Positions 44,523-53,230 of a DNA stretch of 64,000 nucleotides are shown piece by piece (the stretch's first letter is position 1; every line of letters begins with the position of its first letter). The DNA comes from Microcaldota archaeon (GTDB lineage Archaea; Micrarchaeota; Micrarchaeia; Micrarchaeales; Micrarchaeaceae). Made by a program: the position numbers and the translations under genes. The DNA lies in the NCBI GenBank assembly GCA_021799475.1, contig JAJZAJ010000002.1:1-64000 (forward strand), written 5' to 3'. The notes under the pieces were generated by a model. It saw only the letters and a list, made by a program, of their open reading frames with translations, ran no database searches and was not told where the DNA came from.

Positions 44523-46058
44523 TTACATATAGAATCTATAATGTGGCTGCAATGGTATGTCCTTGCTTGCCTCTGATAATATTTCACCCACTTTTTCTGA
44601 AAATTCCAAAGTTATCGGCAGATATGTTGAAAAGGCAGTAGTATTCCAATTAAGTTTTGTCAGGCCTATTATTTCATCACATATTTCTGATACTTCAGAA
44701 TCGCCTATATGTGTGATAAGTAGAGGCTGTGGTATGCTATGACCTGGATACGTTCTTATTCTTGGAGTATAACCAGATGTGAAAAGTATGTGTTCTTTAT
44801 CAGTAAGATGTACCAAAGTTCCTCTCAAAACAGGATACGATCCCATTCTCATGAATCGAATACCTTTTCTTTTGCTAATTGTAACAAAATCATGCTTAAC
44901 CATGCCTATTGCAGTATTCAGCCCCTTAATTTCATCATTACTAAATAGTGTTGATTTATGTATCACAACACGAGCAGGCGTACGATGTGCTTTCTCAGTA
45001 TATTTCTCTATTGCTTCCTTTAGTAATGTCTCTGCTTGTTTTTCAGACAGATGTGGTTCTTTCGTAATCGTATCTACATATACCTCGCTACCGCGTAATA
45101 CTAAACCCTGTCCATCGTGTGTGAATACTTGTGCCATCGAGGTTTGAATATCTATGTTGAAAGCTAGCTTATCTCTGTAGAAAGATATTCCGACATAACA
45201 CGTATCGTCCCTTAATTTAGCAAGTCGCCAAGGCTTACCATTTGCCTTGTAGAACAAAGCGGTTGAGAAGTTCCAAGCAAATGACGCTGGTTCTTGTTTC
45301 ATTCCTCCCTTTTCCTTATTGTAGTTCAATACTGCATCCATAGTAGATTCTCTGAGGATTTGGATAGGTATGGCCGGCTTTATGCCCATGTTTTTGCCTT
45401 TTAGAGCATTTCTAAAATCGTAACCTTTGGGTTTTTCCGCTAATTTTTCACTTACGGCTGCTCCCCAGTCAGATAAAAACCTTTGCTTGTTCTTCCATCC
45501 TGCTATCTCGCGCTCCAATTCTGTAGGTTTTGGAGTTTTTGCACCTCTGGTAAAACGAGATATTCCGCAATGTTCCTCAATCTCTTTTGGCAAACAGCAG
45601 AGGATGGCACTTGGCGGGTTGTCTTCACTTGCAATATTACGGATTTTTGTAAGATAAAGTTCTACTGCTGCACCTATTCTTTCGTTAGTATTAGTAATTT
45701 TTAGTATGCTGTCTATTTCAGACTGGAGAATAGTATCTTGCCATGTGCCAGATATGTCTATATCACATCCAAATTTCGTGTCCTTAGATATACCCGGGAA
45801 GTCCGGATATAGCCACTTATTAGCACCAGCACTTACTATTGGCTCTTTTATCATAGATAATATTGCTTTGGTCTTTTCTAGTGTAGATTTATCACCTATA
45901 ATCCCTAATCCTATTTTGTCTAAAGGCTTTGTCTCAGATTCATGCGTATATGGCCCAAAATACTTAAGTCCTATTCGTGGATCTTTCTCTTCGCGAAGTC
46001 CTCCGAAGATTAGGTTCCGTTCCATAATATAGTCGGTCTTAAACTCCATTATTATCAT
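44523..46058 (-). CDS. Short prokaryotic Argonaute (MID-PIWI)
   Basis: The 511-residue protein has the front end typical of short Argonautes (MERNLIFGGLREEKDPRIGL then KYFGPY). A MID-like region includes FRNALKGKNMGIKPAIPIQI, and a PIWI fold runs to the end (CYVGISFYRDKLAFNIDIQT, ARVVIHKSTLFSNDEIKGL, VHLTDKEHILFTSGYTPRI). PAZ and N domains are absent. Residues at the usual catalytic Asp positions are Ser (G-I-S) and Lys/Ser (I-H-K-S), so it is probably a guide-directed sensor without slicing. ATG 46058 and 46049 both fit. It overlaps the Schlafen-like gene by 20 bp. Confidence 0.88.
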   Translation of the reverse strand: MIIMEFKTDYIMERNLIFGGLREEKDPRIGLKYFGPYTHESETKPLDKIGLGIIGDKSTLEKTKAILSMIKEPIVSAGANKWLYPDFPGISKDTKFGCDIDISGTWQDTILQSEIDSILKITNTNERIGAAVELYLTKIRNIASEDNPPSAILCCLPKEIEEHCGISRFTRGAKTPKPTELEREIAGWKNKQRFLSDWGAAVSEKLAEKPKGYDFRNALKGKNMGIKPAIPIQILRESTMDAVLNYNKEKGGMKQEPASFAWNFSTALFYKANGKPWRLAKLRDDTCYVGISFYRDKLAFNIDIQTSMAQVFTHDGQGLVLRGSEVYVDTITKEPHLSEKQAETLLKEAIEKYTEKAHRTPARVVIHKSTLFSNDEIKGLNTAIGMVKHDFVTISKRKGIRFMRMGSYPVLRGTLVHLTDKEHILFTSGYTPRIRTYPGHSIPQPLLITHIGDSEVSEICDEIIGLTKLNWNTTAFSTYLPITLEFSEKVGEILSEASKDIPLQPHYRFYM

Positions 46059-47478
46059 CAATGCTTATCGCTAATTCCTCTGGTTCCTCTTCAATTTCAA
46101 GTTTGAACTCTGATGAAGGAATGTCAAATAGAATGCCATAAGCCATTTTAGCCGCTACAGGAGTGGGGTCTACCTCAATGTAGTCGTTTACATTGATACT
46201 CGCTCCTCCGCCTAATTTGTATATCCAGAACAAAATTGTATTTAGGTAGTTGCCGTTGTATTTGTCATAAGAAAGTCTCGTTATAACAGTGCCTTCTTCT
46301 GCTCCTGCAATTACACGTTTCCCATCTTCAGTGAGAATAAATGTCGGTTTGATTCTTAGGAATATTCTTTCGCCCAATCTGATAAAATCTGCAAAGAAAG
46401 CAGGGTGGCAGTAAATATCCCTATTAAGCTGAGCAGTCCACATTTTCGCCGCTACCTGCCTTGTCGCTTTTCCATACCTAGCTTGCCACGATTCTTCTCT
46501 TCTTTCAGTATCAGTTGAATAGAAAAATTTGTGCCTGTCTAAACTATAATAGAGGTGAATATTTGAAATTGCATGATGTCTTAATTCTCTATTCAGCAAA
46601 TCGATTATTATTCTTGCCTTATCAGCATCCTTTAGCCACGAATCTAGAGATTCTTTCTTAATTGTTCTACTATCGACAAGGCCAGAGTATAGGTTTCCTG
46701 AATCTTGTAGGTTTTCAAATGTTACTATATTGCCGTTCCACTCTCTAAATTTGAAAACCCACTCGGGAAAAACATTGTTCTGTTTAAGGAAGGCTTTCTT
46801 TGAGTCTTTATCTCCCAACTTATCCGTTCCAAAATACACGCATTGCGGTAGTTTTTTAAGTTCAAACAAGTTGCTATATATCTCCTCATTTATTTCGTCA
46901 GGATCACCGCTCAGTAAAGAGATTCTATAGTTTTCGATTTCCAGCCTCTTTTTCATTATTTGCTCTTCTTGCTTAGACGGATGAATGCTTTGTGTTCCTC
47001 TCCTATAGAAAACCTCATCGACTTTAAAGACGATCCTTTCTTTATTGCCTTTGTTGTATTTGCCTTCTTTCTTAGGTGTCAGGATCTTGTGTGAAGGAGG
47101 AATATAAATATAAGCAAACCTTAAGCCTTGGGCATCTTTCACTTCTCTATAAAGCAATTCTATAGGCTCATCTACATAGGAATTAAATTTCTCTTGTAGG
47201 CTAGCTTGGTCTACATTATATTCGTCTGGTAAACCCACAGGTGAATATTGACTATTCGTTATTTCTTTCCAACCTAGGAGTAACCATCCAACGCCATAGT
47301 TACTAAATGCAAAAATATCCTTTGCTATTTCTGGAAAAGCAGAGTCTGAGATATCCATTGTCCATTTGAAATCAAGAAACGGAGCCTCACTTTTCCTCTG
47401 TTTAAGGAAATCTATTACATAATCACTAAGCGGCTCAGACTCAACTTCGTTTATTACTACCTGGGCTTCATGTCGCAT
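46039..47478 (-). CDS. Schlafen/AlbA_2-type protein, putative Argonaute partner
   Basis: Residues 20-130 look like an AlbA_2 (Schlafen-type) domain: EAPFLDFKWTMDIS, then EIAKDIFAFSNYGVGWLLLG. Some members bind nucleotides or cleave RNA. After a linker, the 190 C-terminal residues have a conserved-looking block with SWQARYGKATRQVAAKMW, FADFIRLGERIFLRIKPTFI and LTEDG. It might play the part of the APAZ domain that pairs with short Argonautes, but I cannot prove homology. It is upstream of and overlaps the Argonaute gene. The mature system would be a two-gene defence operon. The AT-rich promoter lies at about 47480-47520. Confidence 0.78.
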   Translation of the reverse strand: MRHEAQVVINEVESEPLSDYVIDFLKQRKSEAPFLDFKWTMDISDSAFPEIAKDIFAFSNYGVGWLLLGWKEITNSQYSPVGLPDEYNVDQASLQEKFNSYVDEPIELLYREVKDAQGLRFAYIYIPPSHKILTPKKEGKYNKGNKERIVFKVDEVFYRRGTQSIHPSKQEEQIMKKRLEIENYRISLLSGDPDEINEEIYSNLFELKKLPQCVYFGTDKLGDKDSKKAFLKQNNVFPEWVFKFREWNGNIVTFENLQDSGNLYSGLVDSRTIKKESLDSWLKDADKARIIIDLLNRELRHHAISNIHLYYSLDRHKFFYSTDTERREESWQARYGKATRQVAAKMWTAQLNRDIYCHPAFFADFIRLGERIFLRIKPTFILTEDGKRVIAGAEEGTVITRLSYDKYNGNYLNTILFWIYKLGGGASINVNDYIEVDPTPVAAKMAYGILFDIPSSEFKLEIEEEPEELAISIDDNNGV

Positions 47479-49843: not shown

Positions 49844-50824
49844 TCACCTCCCGGCCCCATACGGATTGAAAGGTTTATCCCGTATGAGCATGAAATAAAT
49901 AATTCTTGCAAGTCTCCTCGAACATGCAACAACAGCCTTCTTCGGTCCTATTCGTTTTGAAAGTTCGTAATACTTTTCTGTTATTATCGAATCTTTGCAG
50001 TGCATAACGTGCATCCATGTACATTCGATCAGAATTGTGCGCAGCGTTACATTTCCTGATTTAAGGTGTCCCTTCCATTCAACCGATCCTGATTGATGTG
50101 TCGATGGACACAGGCCGGCGTAAGAGAAGAGATGAAATTCTGTCGGAAATCTATGAACATTCCCTATCTGACTTGCGATAGTGAGTGCAGATGTGTAACC
50201 TACACCTGGAATAGTGTCTATTAATTTCGCGTAATGACTCTGCATTGCCTTTTCTTTTACTGCGCCATTGAAGTCCGAAATTCTTTCGGTATGTTCTTTG
50301 TATAGTTTTGCAAGTTCCCTCAATGACAGATGTTCCGACATCTCTAGTTCATTGACCGATTTCTTTGTCAACGAACCCAATTCTACTCCGTATTTGTGCA
50401 CCTCGTACCTTATCCTGTTCTTTGTCGCTGTCCTTTGCCTCACAAAGAAGTCTCTTGCGCTACAGAGGTTCCTGTCCTCCCTTATCTCCTTCGGCGGTAG
50501 ATAAGAGGTCGGAAGGTAATCCGCATTGTACGCGTCCAACAATTTGTGTGCATCATTCTTATCGGTCTTGTTCGGCGACTTTGCAATTAACCTCATCGCA
50601 GCTGGATGCGCAACAACTATTTTACCGCTGCGGCGTTCCAGTAGGTCCACAACGGGGTAAAGATTATTTCCCGCCTCTATTATGAAGGTGTTTCCTTCAC
50701 ATGCAGGTATTATCGAATCAAAACCTTCCTGTGTTGTATCCACATACCCCTCGTCTTCTACCATGTCGCCTTTCTGTACGACGACATAACTCCTTCTCTT
50801 TCCGATATCTATTGCTATCTCCAT
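49844..50824 (-). CDS. IS110-family transposase
   Basis: The 326-residue protein has the RuvC-like N-terminal domain of IS110 (MEIAIDIGKRRSYVVV, FIIEAG, SPNKTDKNDAHKLLDAY) and the C-terminal domain with LIDTIPGVGYTSALTIAS and STHQSGSVEWKGHLKSGNV, where a serine is thought to act. IS110 elements lack terminal inverted repeats and use a bridge RNA made from the non-coding end. The ATG at 50824 is preferred to GTG 50830. The gene is intact, so it could still be active. It sits between the unknown operon and the DGR. Confidence 0.92.
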   Translation of the reverse strand: MEIAIDIGKRRSYVVVQKGDMVEDEGYVDTTQEGFDSIIPACEGNTFIIEAGNNLYPVVDLLERRSGKIVVAHPAAMRLIAKSPNKTDKNDAHKLLDAYNADYLPTSYLPPKEIREDRNLCSARDFFVRQRTATKNRIRYEVHKYGVELGSLTKKSVNELEMSEHLSLRELAKLYKEHTERISDFNGAVKEKAMQSHYAKLIDTIPGVGYTSALTIASQIGNVHRFPTEFHLFSYAGLCPSTHQSGSVEWKGHLKSGNVTLRTILIECTWMHVMHCKDSIITEKYYELSKRIGPKKAVVACSRRLARIIYFMLIRDKPFNPYGAGR

Positions 50825-50830
50825 ATACAC

Positions 50831-51095: not shown

Positions 51096-51749
51096 ATGGT
51101 AGCACCAGCGGCTAAGATGGCAATGGCTCCACAGGCATCAGAGACGAGATTCGGCGACTTTAAGCCGATCGTAGGTTCAACGGGAGCGACGATATACGCC
51201 TTACAGGCGGGGGCAAATCATACTAAGTCTATGGCGCTTCTGTCAGAAGCGGGATTGAGACCTTTCAAGGAGAAAGAGATAATTTTGCTACTGATGAAGG
51301 ACGAGGTTCTAAAAACTGAGTTAAAAAACAAGTGGTTCTACATCGATGGTGTAGGCAGCGAAAAAAGCGGCCTGTTTACACTGAACGAGGAAGGCAAGCT
51401 TGTAAAAGTGGACTCACTTCCAAGAGCAGCAAGGAAGAAGGTTTCACCTGAAAATATCGTTCGTGCATATCCGGGACAGCAGCCGCTGTCGTTCCTCGTC
51501 GATTCGGACGACTACGCCGCCTACTATGGCAGGCGTTTCGACCTGCTTGCCTACTTCGGGCCTCATGTTGTCGCTCCGGTGGTGGTTGGCGTGCCTGCCG
51601 ACCGCGAAGCGGTCGCGCCGAAAACAAGCGCACAGCCTAATGTTCCAGCTCACCTACTTAGAAGAGCAAAGGATCAGTTCGTAGAGCTGAGAAAGCACCA
51701 GAAGCCTGAAACGATTGATGCAATCGAAGAGGTTCTGGGCAGCCTTTAA
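51096..51749 (+). CDS. DGR variable protein
   Basis: The 217-residue protein has an Ala/Met-rich front, then a soluble domain (ATIYALQAGANHTKSMALLS, KWFYIDGVGSEKSGLFTL). Its residues 130-163 are the variable region, in frame with the repeat (PLSFLVDSDDYAAYYGRRFD). Twelve codons in that segment differ from the template repeat, and every change is at a template adenine. Unlike the common form, the variable region is not at the extreme C-terminus; 54 residues follow, ending ETIDAIEEVLGSL. No signal peptide or membrane helix is visible. Its fold is not the usual C-type lectin as far as I can see. It would bind an unknown, changeable partner. Confidence 0.85.
   Translation: MVAPAAKMAMAPQASETRFGDFKPIVGSTGATIYALQAGANHTKSMALLSEAGLRPFKEKEIILLLMKDEVLKTELKNKWFYIDGVGSEKSGLFTLNEEGKLVKVDSLPRAARKKVSPENIVRAYPGQQPLSFLVDSDDYAAYYGRRFDLLAYFGPHVVAPVVVGVPADREAVAPKTSAQPNVPAHLLRRAKDQFVELRKHQKPETIDAIEEVLGSL
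51483..51583 (+). repeat. DGR variable region (VR)
   Basis: It is 101 bp long and aligns without gaps to 51989-52089. There are 17 differences, all where the template has A (to G, T or C); none of the 74 other template bases differs. This is the adenine-specific signature of mutagenic retrohoming. Confidence 0.95.
51599..51615 (+). promoter_or_regulatory. Hairpin just after the DGR variable region
   Basis: CGACCGC-GAA-GCGGTCG forms a seven-pair stem 16 bp past the VR end, still inside the gene. In the Bordetella phage DGR a comparable hairpin marks the target. It is missing after the template repeat. Confidence 0.65.
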
Positions 51750-51777
51750 ATATTATATTGAAGGCAACTCCTTTTAC

Positions 51778-51895
51778 CTGGGTTTGCTTGAGGGGTAAAA
51801 CCCTCCAAATTTGCGGGCATAAGCCCGCGGGATGCAAACCGAGGACCACACATCCGTCTATAGCGCCGGTAGTTCACGAACATACCGGACATGAA
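51778..51895 (+). ncRNA. Structured RNA leader between variable gene and template repeat
   Basis: GGTTTGC (51781-51787) pairs with GCAAACC (51834-51840), enclosing two hairpins: GAGGG/CCCTC (51790-51805) and GCGGGC-ATAA-GCCCGC (51813-51828). This gives a three-way junction. A further hairpin CCGGTA/TACCGG follows (51868-51889). No protein frame is present here, so a folded 5' part of the DGR template RNA is likely. There is no accessory (Avd-like) gene. Confidence 0.5.
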
Positions 51896-51988
51896 ATTCA
51901 GCAGCGACACTGAGTAGGCATTAGCTGAAACCGTGAAGCTGCGGTGTTGCCATGAAAATGGCGTTTTAGTAGATGGGTTACATTATCG

Positions 51989-52089
51989 CCGCTGTCGTTC
52001 AACGTCAATTCGGACAACAACGCCGCCAACTATGGCAGGCGTTTCAACCTGAATGCCAACAACGAGCCTCATAATGTCGCTCCAATGGT
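51989..52089 (+). repeat. DGR template repeat (TR)
   Basis: This is the gap-free partner of the VR at 51483-51583, rich in AAC/AAT codons in the matching frame (27 adenines in 101 bp). It ends 33 bp before the reverse-transcriptase ATG. It would be transcribed and copied with errors at adenines into the variable gene. Confidence 0.95.
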
Positions 52090-52122
52090 TCTCATTTGCA
52101 TCCTGGGTTTCATGGTAATGAC

Positions 52123-53230
52123 ATGGAAACCTACAGAAACCTGTATCCTGAACTGTGTTCTTACGATAATCTCGTACTTGCTTGGAAAAGGGCAAGGAAG
52201 GGCAAGACGAAGAAGGACTACGTCATAAAATTCGAGTCCGATCTTGAGAATAACCTACAGCAGCTTAAGCACGAGCTTGAGACTTTAGTGTATCTTCCGG
52301 CCCCCTTGACGACTTTTATAGTGAGGGATCCCAAAACAAGAAGGATAAGCGCATCGCATTTCAGGGACAGGGTTGTCCATCATGCTCTTTGCAACATCAT
52401 AGCCCCTATTTTTGAGAAGGATTTCATACATGATTCGTTTGCCAACCAGAAAGGCAAGGGCACTCACATGGCCATAAAAAGGATTGAGAAGTTCATGAGG
52501 GTTGTACGCGTTGCCACACCAGTCGGGGGGGGGGGCGCAAAAATTGCTGTTTGAAAAACAGGAAACCCTTGGATATGCGCTTAAGGCGGACATTAAGCAT
52601 TATTTCGACACGGTGGATCATGCAGTATTGCTCGGCATAATCGAAAGGAAAATAAAAGACGAAAATACCATCTGGCTGATAAAAACCATTCTCAATAACC
52701 ACAAAGTCGACGTTTCAGGTAAGGGGATGCCAATCGGCAATCTAACATCGCAGTTCTTTGCAAATGTCTACCTTAATGAGCTCGACCAATTTGTAAAGCA
52801 CATTTTGAAGGCCAAATATTATCTAAGATATGTCGACGATTTCACCATTTTTCACAGGGACAAGGCAATTCTTGGGAAGTGGAAAAGAGAGATAGAAGGC
52901 TTTCTGAACGGGGAGCTCAAAGTGGAGCTACATCCCCAAAAGTCAAGAATAATCGAGCTTAAAAGGGGCATAACGATGCTTGGTTTCAGGGTATTCTACC
53001 ATCACAGGCTTCTCAAGAAGAGCAATGCAAGACGGATATGGAAACGGCTAGAGCGCTTTAAGCAAAAGTACGACAGCGGTGAGCTCACCGCAGAAGAAGC
53101 GGCCCGTAGCATGGAGGGATGGATTGCCTATGCCAAGTTTGCAAACACATATAACTTTAGGCAGAGCGTTAACTCCAGATTCAGTGATCTGTTTAGCCCA
53201 GCCCGGACAGGGCGAAGAACCAGTGCCTGA
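52123..53230 (+). CDS. DGR reverse transcriptase, frame broken at an 11-G run
   Basis: The first part (METYRNLYPELCSYDNLVLA..., to the G-run at 52525-52535) has VVHHALCNII and SFANQKGKGTHMAI. The second part, in the next frame, has YALKADIKHYFDTVDH, the DGR-specific IGNLTSQ (52733-52753) and the catalytic YVDD (52829-52840), then a thumb region. Deleting one G from the run joins the parts into one 368-residue protein of normal DGR length. It is either phase-variable, inactive, or a sequencing error. DGR enzymes copy the template repeat with mistakes at A. No start other than 52123 (a TTG at 52096 is in frame) is needed. Confidence 0.9.

Follow-up and report, generated by a model that had tools for sequence, protein, structure and literature searches.

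How can a diversity-generating retroelement (DGR) have been at work if its reverse transcriptase (RT) cannot be read through in the assembled DNA? This question is raised by a locus in a stretch of 64,000 nucleotides from an archaeal genome (the window), in which a run of eleven guanines separates the two halves of the RT. That the element itself is a DGR is supported by differences between its variable region (VR) and template region (TR) that fall on adenines only, by an RT-16 RNA, by a hairpin that follows the VR, and by the likeness of the RTs of its in-frame relatives to a known DGR RT. Between TR and VR, 17 of the 27 template adenines are changed (to T in 8 cases, to G in 7, and to C in 2), as are 0 of 74 other bases; the tally of 17 and 0 is exactly that given in an earlier note on this DNA, whose coordinates for both repeats were exact as well; one further matching base on the upstream side brings the repeat to 102 nt. 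On the plus strand, the order of the parts is target gene with internal VR, hairpin, RT-16 RNA, TR, and RT (Table 1). The RT-16 RNA reached the cut-off at 28 of 33 RT loci, the window counted, and its end was no more than 4 bases away from the start of the TR in all four loci compared.

Table 1. Features of the DGR locus, in positions of the window
Feature	Position	Strand	Remarks
DGR target gene	51096..51749	+	217 aa; Micrarchaeota protein family, several copies in some genomes
VR	51483..51583	+	target residues 130-163 (first residue 129/130)
Inverted repeat CGACCGC-GAA-GCGGTCG	51599..51615	+	starts 16 nt past the end of the VR
RT-16 RNA (Rfam RF03019)	51777..51986	+	78.9 bits, E 1.3e-10; adjoins the TR
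TR	51989..52089	+	single TR in the genome by pattern search
RT, N-terminal part	52123..52554	+	first ATG at 52123; stop just past the G run; PHROG 1423, E 1e-46
G11 run, candidate phase-variation tract	52525..52535	+	in the linker that joins motifs 2 and 3 of the RT
RT, C-terminal part (contains IGNLTSQ, YVDD)	52536..53230	+	frame one base off that of the N-terminal part

A hairpin or cruciform that follows the VR and is missing after the TR is a feature of DGRs known from work on Bordetella phage. The hairpin 3' of the window's VR has a 7-bp stem and a GAA loop (8 of 200 shuffled sequences equaled this), and a hairpin scan gave hairpins of 6 to 7 bp after the VR at 9 of 14 loci and none at the other 5. 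After the window's TR, a hairpin of the VR type is absent, and the scan gave only a different, 5-bp hairpin ~40 nt further on; across the scanned loci, the only hairpin after a TR was a different 5-bp one, present at two loci. Both motifs that had been reported for the downstream RT, IGNLTSQ and YVDD, were found in its open reading frame. The DGR RT 8ub7 was the best match for a profile built from the RTs of ten in-frame relatives (E = 2.3e-62) and also for a structural model of the RT of one in-frame relative, L280 (E = 8e-20), in which the loop that holds the tract (residues 146 to 160) is of low confidence. In contrast to 8ub7, a solved structure, the RT of the window is out of frame, and in its family the repeat sits in a linker that joins motifs 2 and 3 and varies in length. 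An Avd-type accessory protein was not among the Pfam matches of ten neighboring open reading frames; such a protein is not universal among DGRs. The assignment of the host to the DPANN archaea was borne out: it is a Micrarchaeon, RTs of several genomes of the same class are identical to those in public records of Candidatus Micrarchaeota, although one genome of the same order (L289) is the Candidatus Marsarchaeota record L153. The description of the DGR as complete, on the other hand, had missed that the assembled frame of the RT is broken.

The two halves of the RT lie in different frames, each of them open, and the break is at the G11 run. This is the sole run of nine or more guanines (G9+) found in the 95%-complete genome, in which the C-terminal half of the RT has no second match besides the window's own. 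From base composition, ~1.2 G9+ runs are expected per genome, and therefore, it is the location of the tract that is unusual and not its mere presence. Among the matches listed for 100 genomes, that of the window included, 42 G9+ runs were found, 9 of them at this very site of the RT; in 7 of the 9 genomes that have it, the run in the RT is the genome's only one among the matches listed.

The site proved to be a recurrent one in a census of 33 distinct Micrarchaeota RTs with both halves. Some RT match was present in 45 of 301 genomes, of which a subset was used: partial, short, or distant matches were dropped before counting, as were L153 (the same record as L289) and L081 and L245 (no N half). 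A repeat is present at the junction of motifs 2 and 3 in 25 of the 33 RTs (18 G, 2 C, and 5 AG), and no such repeat was found elsewhere in the aligned Micrarchaeota RTs. The carriers are out of frame in 22 of 25 cases, counting L077, where a scaffold N gap lies between two tract copies, G9 and G11, and the frame cannot be judged; the three in frame are L280 (G10) and L082 and L286 (both AG). The frame is intact in all eight RTs that lack a repeat (Fisher P = 1.2e-5 for repeat versus frame break, relatedness ignored). Three in-frame genes of 25 are fewer than the one-third expected (P = 0.015), and this reflects either a bias toward the OFF state or that in-frame DNA is not needed. The N frame is open for 100 or more codons ahead of the tract in 23 of the 25 carriers, the C frame has no stop between the tract and the end of the alignment in 20, and both sides are open in 20. 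In L283, L285, and L083, the C frame stops 9 to 20 codons short of the aligned end; L285 and L288 are at contig edges; and L289 and L290 are decayed, with a stop after the tract and a match to RT over only ~137 residues of the C half. On a tree of the C halves (16 of 43 inner branches well supported, 14 open), the type of tract changed at least 12 times; on the well-supported branches alone, a separate count for each type requires 4 changes for G, 2 each for AG and C, and 5 for no tract. One genome, G113, has two DGR RT paralogues with different flanks, one with (AG)9 out of frame (L080) and one with (AG)10 in frame (L082). The RT of an IMG/VR contig (L155) falls inside the Micrarchaeota RT clade.

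At the junction of motifs 2 and 3, neither a repeat nor a frame break was found in 65 other archaeal RTs or in 76 distinct RTs from IMG/VR, and for both sets, the frame test detects breaks at this junction only. Repeats elsewhere in the gene are present in 7 of the 65 archaeal RTs and, in the form of T8, C8, or (GC)5, in seven RTs from IMG/VR. Those of the Aenigmatarchaeota lie near the N terminus of the RT (G9 and G10 out of frame in L093 and L127, G11 in frame in L110), and among the Pacearchaeota records, L105 and L144 have an in-frame tract (G9 and G10) and L151 has an out-of-frame G9. A frame break without any repeat occurs in L142, L148, L150, L152, and L342. In the order to which the Pacearchaeota record L144 belongs, at least 80 of 200 genomes have RT matches, and 40 regions were picked, among the matches listed, for a split-looking RT, so that a fraction of ON genes is not derivable from them. 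Both RT parts are present in 38 of the 40, and all 38 are frame-broken; a repeat lies within 70 nt of the break in 35 (21 G and 14 AG) and within 45 nt in 34, and the remaining 3 breaks have no repeat by the thresholds used. In alignment coordinates, the repeats are mostly before KGMPLGN, with three after YVDD. Four of the 29 best-matching RTs of this order have an in-frame repeat. Among 23 RTs from the phylum of G303 (Aenigmatarchaeota), a repeat without a visible break was found in 7 (in one of them, L351, the contig edge cuts the tract), a repeat with a break in 2, and a break without a repeat in 1.

Are the out-of-frame genes still intact? In the closest pairs listed with finite dS, dN/dS was 0.03 to 0.23 for the N half and 0.04 to 0.16 for the C half, and in eight listed pairs in which both genes are out of frame, it was 0.04 to 0.19, all of these values being rough with dS near saturation. 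This set excludes L274, L285, L288, L289, L290, and L153, and the stop was masked in L283 and L083. Furthermore, 38 of 57 out-of-frame loci gave a gapless repeat pair, chosen regardless of A and with the copy that has more A at the mismatches taken as the template, and in these pairs, mismatches fall on 518 of 1038 template A and on 83 of 2441 other bases. Five best pairs (L271, L076, L411, L416, and L425), which were kept in but are probably not VR/TR, account for 55 of the 83 mismatches outside A; the other 19 of the 57 loci gave no repeat pair. Judged by these comparisons, selection on the out-of-frame RTs is purifying, and most of the out-of-frame RT genes are not decayed. The low dN/dS, combined with VR/TR differences concentrated at A, argues that most such DGRs worked not long ago despite an RT that is out of frame in the assembly.

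Our model explains how this could come about. The RT of the window's DGR is probably a phase-variable (contingency) gene, as far as its sequence and those of its relatives tell. Replication slippage at the repeat in the RT would add or remove units, and a minority of cells would thereby come to make full-length RT. In these ON cells, the RT would act with the RT-16 RNA and the TR, and errors would be made at A during copying of the TR; the error-bearing copies would then rewrite the VR of the local target and that of a distant paralogue. With the next slip, the RT would be off again and the chosen variant would be kept. We also consider it fairly likely that this is a stochastic switch on targeted hypermutation throughout the DPANN archaea. 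Repeats would have emerged time and again, at more than one loop of the DGR RTs: Micrarchaeota have them in the linker of motifs 2 and 3, the Pacearchaeota-containing order before KGMPLGN or after YVDD, and Aenigmatarchaeota near the N terminus; rare ON cells would diversify the targets, and a slip to OFF would lock the winner. We infer that the use of such a switch would be a two-tier bet hedging.

It is imaginable that the out-of-frame genes are expressed without any change of the DNA. If the RNA polymerase stutters at the tract, some transcripts would be in frame at any tract length, resulting in a constant, low level of RT and no heritable switch. Transcriptional slippage of this kind would tolerate the out-of-frame state of 22 of the 25 tract genes of Micrarchaeota, and slippage at homopolymers is a classical phenomenon. 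However, the same sites are also occupied by C tracts and by AG repeats of up to 54 nt, dinucleotide repeats are poor substrates for stuttering of the RNA polymerase, and in-frame tract genes exist; we therefore regard transcriptional slippage as unlikely. Programmed ribosomal frameshifting at the G run would be in line with a slippery run that sits within one gene at a recurrent position, but out-of-frame G tracts show both offsets (7 and 10 genes), C and AG repeats are found at the same place, and the in-frame tract genes would be mis-framed by it, which makes it extremely improbable. It is the mixture of offsets and the interchangeability of G, C, and AG repeats that speaks for slippage on the DNA over frameshifting on the ribosome.

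The RT could also be split, with two polypeptides that assemble, or be dying, as a pseudogene left by mutation at a hotspot. L289 and L290 indeed appear decayed, other RTs have frame breaks free of repeats, and a start codon is possible in 18 of 22 out-of-frame C parts, in 4 of them an ATG. Against this, the remaining 4 of the 22 C parts have neither ATG nor GTG nor TTG as a start, dN/dS between out-of-frame genes is low, the VR/TR differences at out-of-frame loci are concentrated at A, and the tracts recur in different loops of different lineages. A split or dying RT is thus very unlikely. Next to no weight can be given to an artifact of sequencing or assembly: the length of homopolymers is error prone, the tract of L077 holds a scaffold gap, the contig of L351 starts with the tract, and the contigs of L412 and L418 end near the expected tract, but the same loop holds a tract in many genomes, and AG repeats are not prone to the error mode of homopolymers.

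As to the replication slippage that we favor, a difference in tract length is seen between the near-identical loci L289 and L290, with G10 and G8 and flanks that are 97% and 99.7% identical; both genes are decayed, and all tract lengths are taken from assemblies, which are prone to homopolymer miscounts. Otherwise, direct evidence of a length change is limited to the G9 and G11 copies on either side of the L077 scaffold gap. L077 and L248 were rejected as a length-variant pair, being overlapping stretches round two tract copies of one record, and further candidate pairs, with an identity of only 87 to 91%, were too distant. MutS_V and NucS_C had matches in 0 of 31 genomes (controls, 11/14 and 7/14), which fits a high rate of slippage. 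In genomes of relatives, other runs of at least nine G (or C, on the opposite strand) between long open stretches were observed at L039, L044, L051, and L023; these are possible phase-variable genes.

A pattern search of the 814-kb genome, with each template A left free and up to 3 mismatches allowed elsewhere, matched three places, the TR and two VRs. The second VR (G000:C1:306258-306359, minus strand) is ~255 kb away, inside a 214-aa paralogue of the target; in this VR, 19 of the 27 template A and 2 of the 75 other positions are changed. Matches to the target family occur in 49 of the phylum's 301 genomes, with a maximum of ten in a single genome, TR pieces included. The internal position of the VR, which had been taken as unusual, is real, but it is shared by 14 of 14 targets examined, a set derived from VR/TR pairs filtered for A. 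The window's target gene has no counterpart in Pfam, NCBIfam, or PHROG: searches with P0001 and P0002 gave no match there with an E value of 1 or less, and the 14 targets gave single weak matches only (E of 0.11 at best in Pfam and of 0.011 in PHROGs). A sequence search of the PDB returned nothing at E up to 1 with a target profile of 5 rows and unrelated proteins, at E of 0.077 and worse, with one of 33 rows. The AF2 model of the target is poor (pLDDT 52); with this model, Foldseek gave titles of C-type-lectin domains in 44 of the best 50 rows (best E 0.069, none at 0.001), and VIA gave Z values up to 6.7, a level at which the tool's label is a possibly just common arrangement. Apart from C-type lectins, hardly any family turns up in VIA, and none is excluded thereby. 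The modeling thus weakly favors a C-type-lectin-like domain in the target, and the earlier proposal of a non-lectin fold and possibly a new class of targets, against which this evidence leans, is unsupported. A VR protein of another locus (L287:2054-2758, minus strand) seems by eye to possess both a signal peptide and a transmembrane stretch at its C terminus, in contrast to the target in the window.

Some cassettes were observed apart from an RT. L291 (G011:C22) has a VR, an RT-16 RNA, and a TR, with 11 of 11 mismatches at A and no RT match within the 6 kb examined; the RT match of this genome lies on a different contig, and the cassette may be served in trans. L295 and L296 have matches to the RT-16 RNA (that of L296 just under the cut-off) and neither an RT match nor a VR/TR pair in the stretch examined. 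In the window, an IS110-family transposase gene (49844-50830, minus strand) lies directly upstream of the DGR target gene. Further upstream, at 44523-47478 (minus strand), a short prokaryotic Argonaute (PADLOC pAgo_I, E = 7e-147) is encoded beside an SLFN_AlbA_2 protein, which has matches to Argonaute-associated families as well; these two genes, ~4 kb upstream of the DGR, are likely a defense pair.

DGRs and phase variation by simple repeats are each known already. The archaeal DGRs described in the main texts of PMC4372165 (Paul et al. 2015) and PMC8144416 (Roux et al. 2021) are alike in their TR, VR, A-specific changes, DGR-type RT, and small targets without recognized domains; unlike in those accounts, the RT here is split by a hypermutable repeat. 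The word "frameshift" is absent from both main texts, and "homopolymer" is absent from that of PMC4372165. In bacterial contingency genes with poly-G/C, as outlined for Campylobacter, Neisseria, and others, a G/C homopolymer or short repeat within the gene likewise sets the frame, and relatives occur in and out of frame, but here the gene under the proposed switch is one that makes targeted mutations itself, and it resides in DPANN archaea. In the open-licence literature, including the portions of PMC8144416, PMC4372165, PMC12926258, PMC10053308, and PMC12135933 available there, no report of a phase-variable DGR RT was found, which does not prove its absence from print; nor was there, among the titles listed, one on archaea for phase variation by simple repeats.

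According to the main text of PMC8144416, some nonstructural or cellular targets of DGRs may change more in episodes of stress, and the cause, control of the RT activity or selection on the targets, is left open there. If true, switching of the RT by slippage would offer a concrete mechanism for the control of its activity, and it would be a case of simple-repeat phase variation in archaea that acts on a mutation-making gene.
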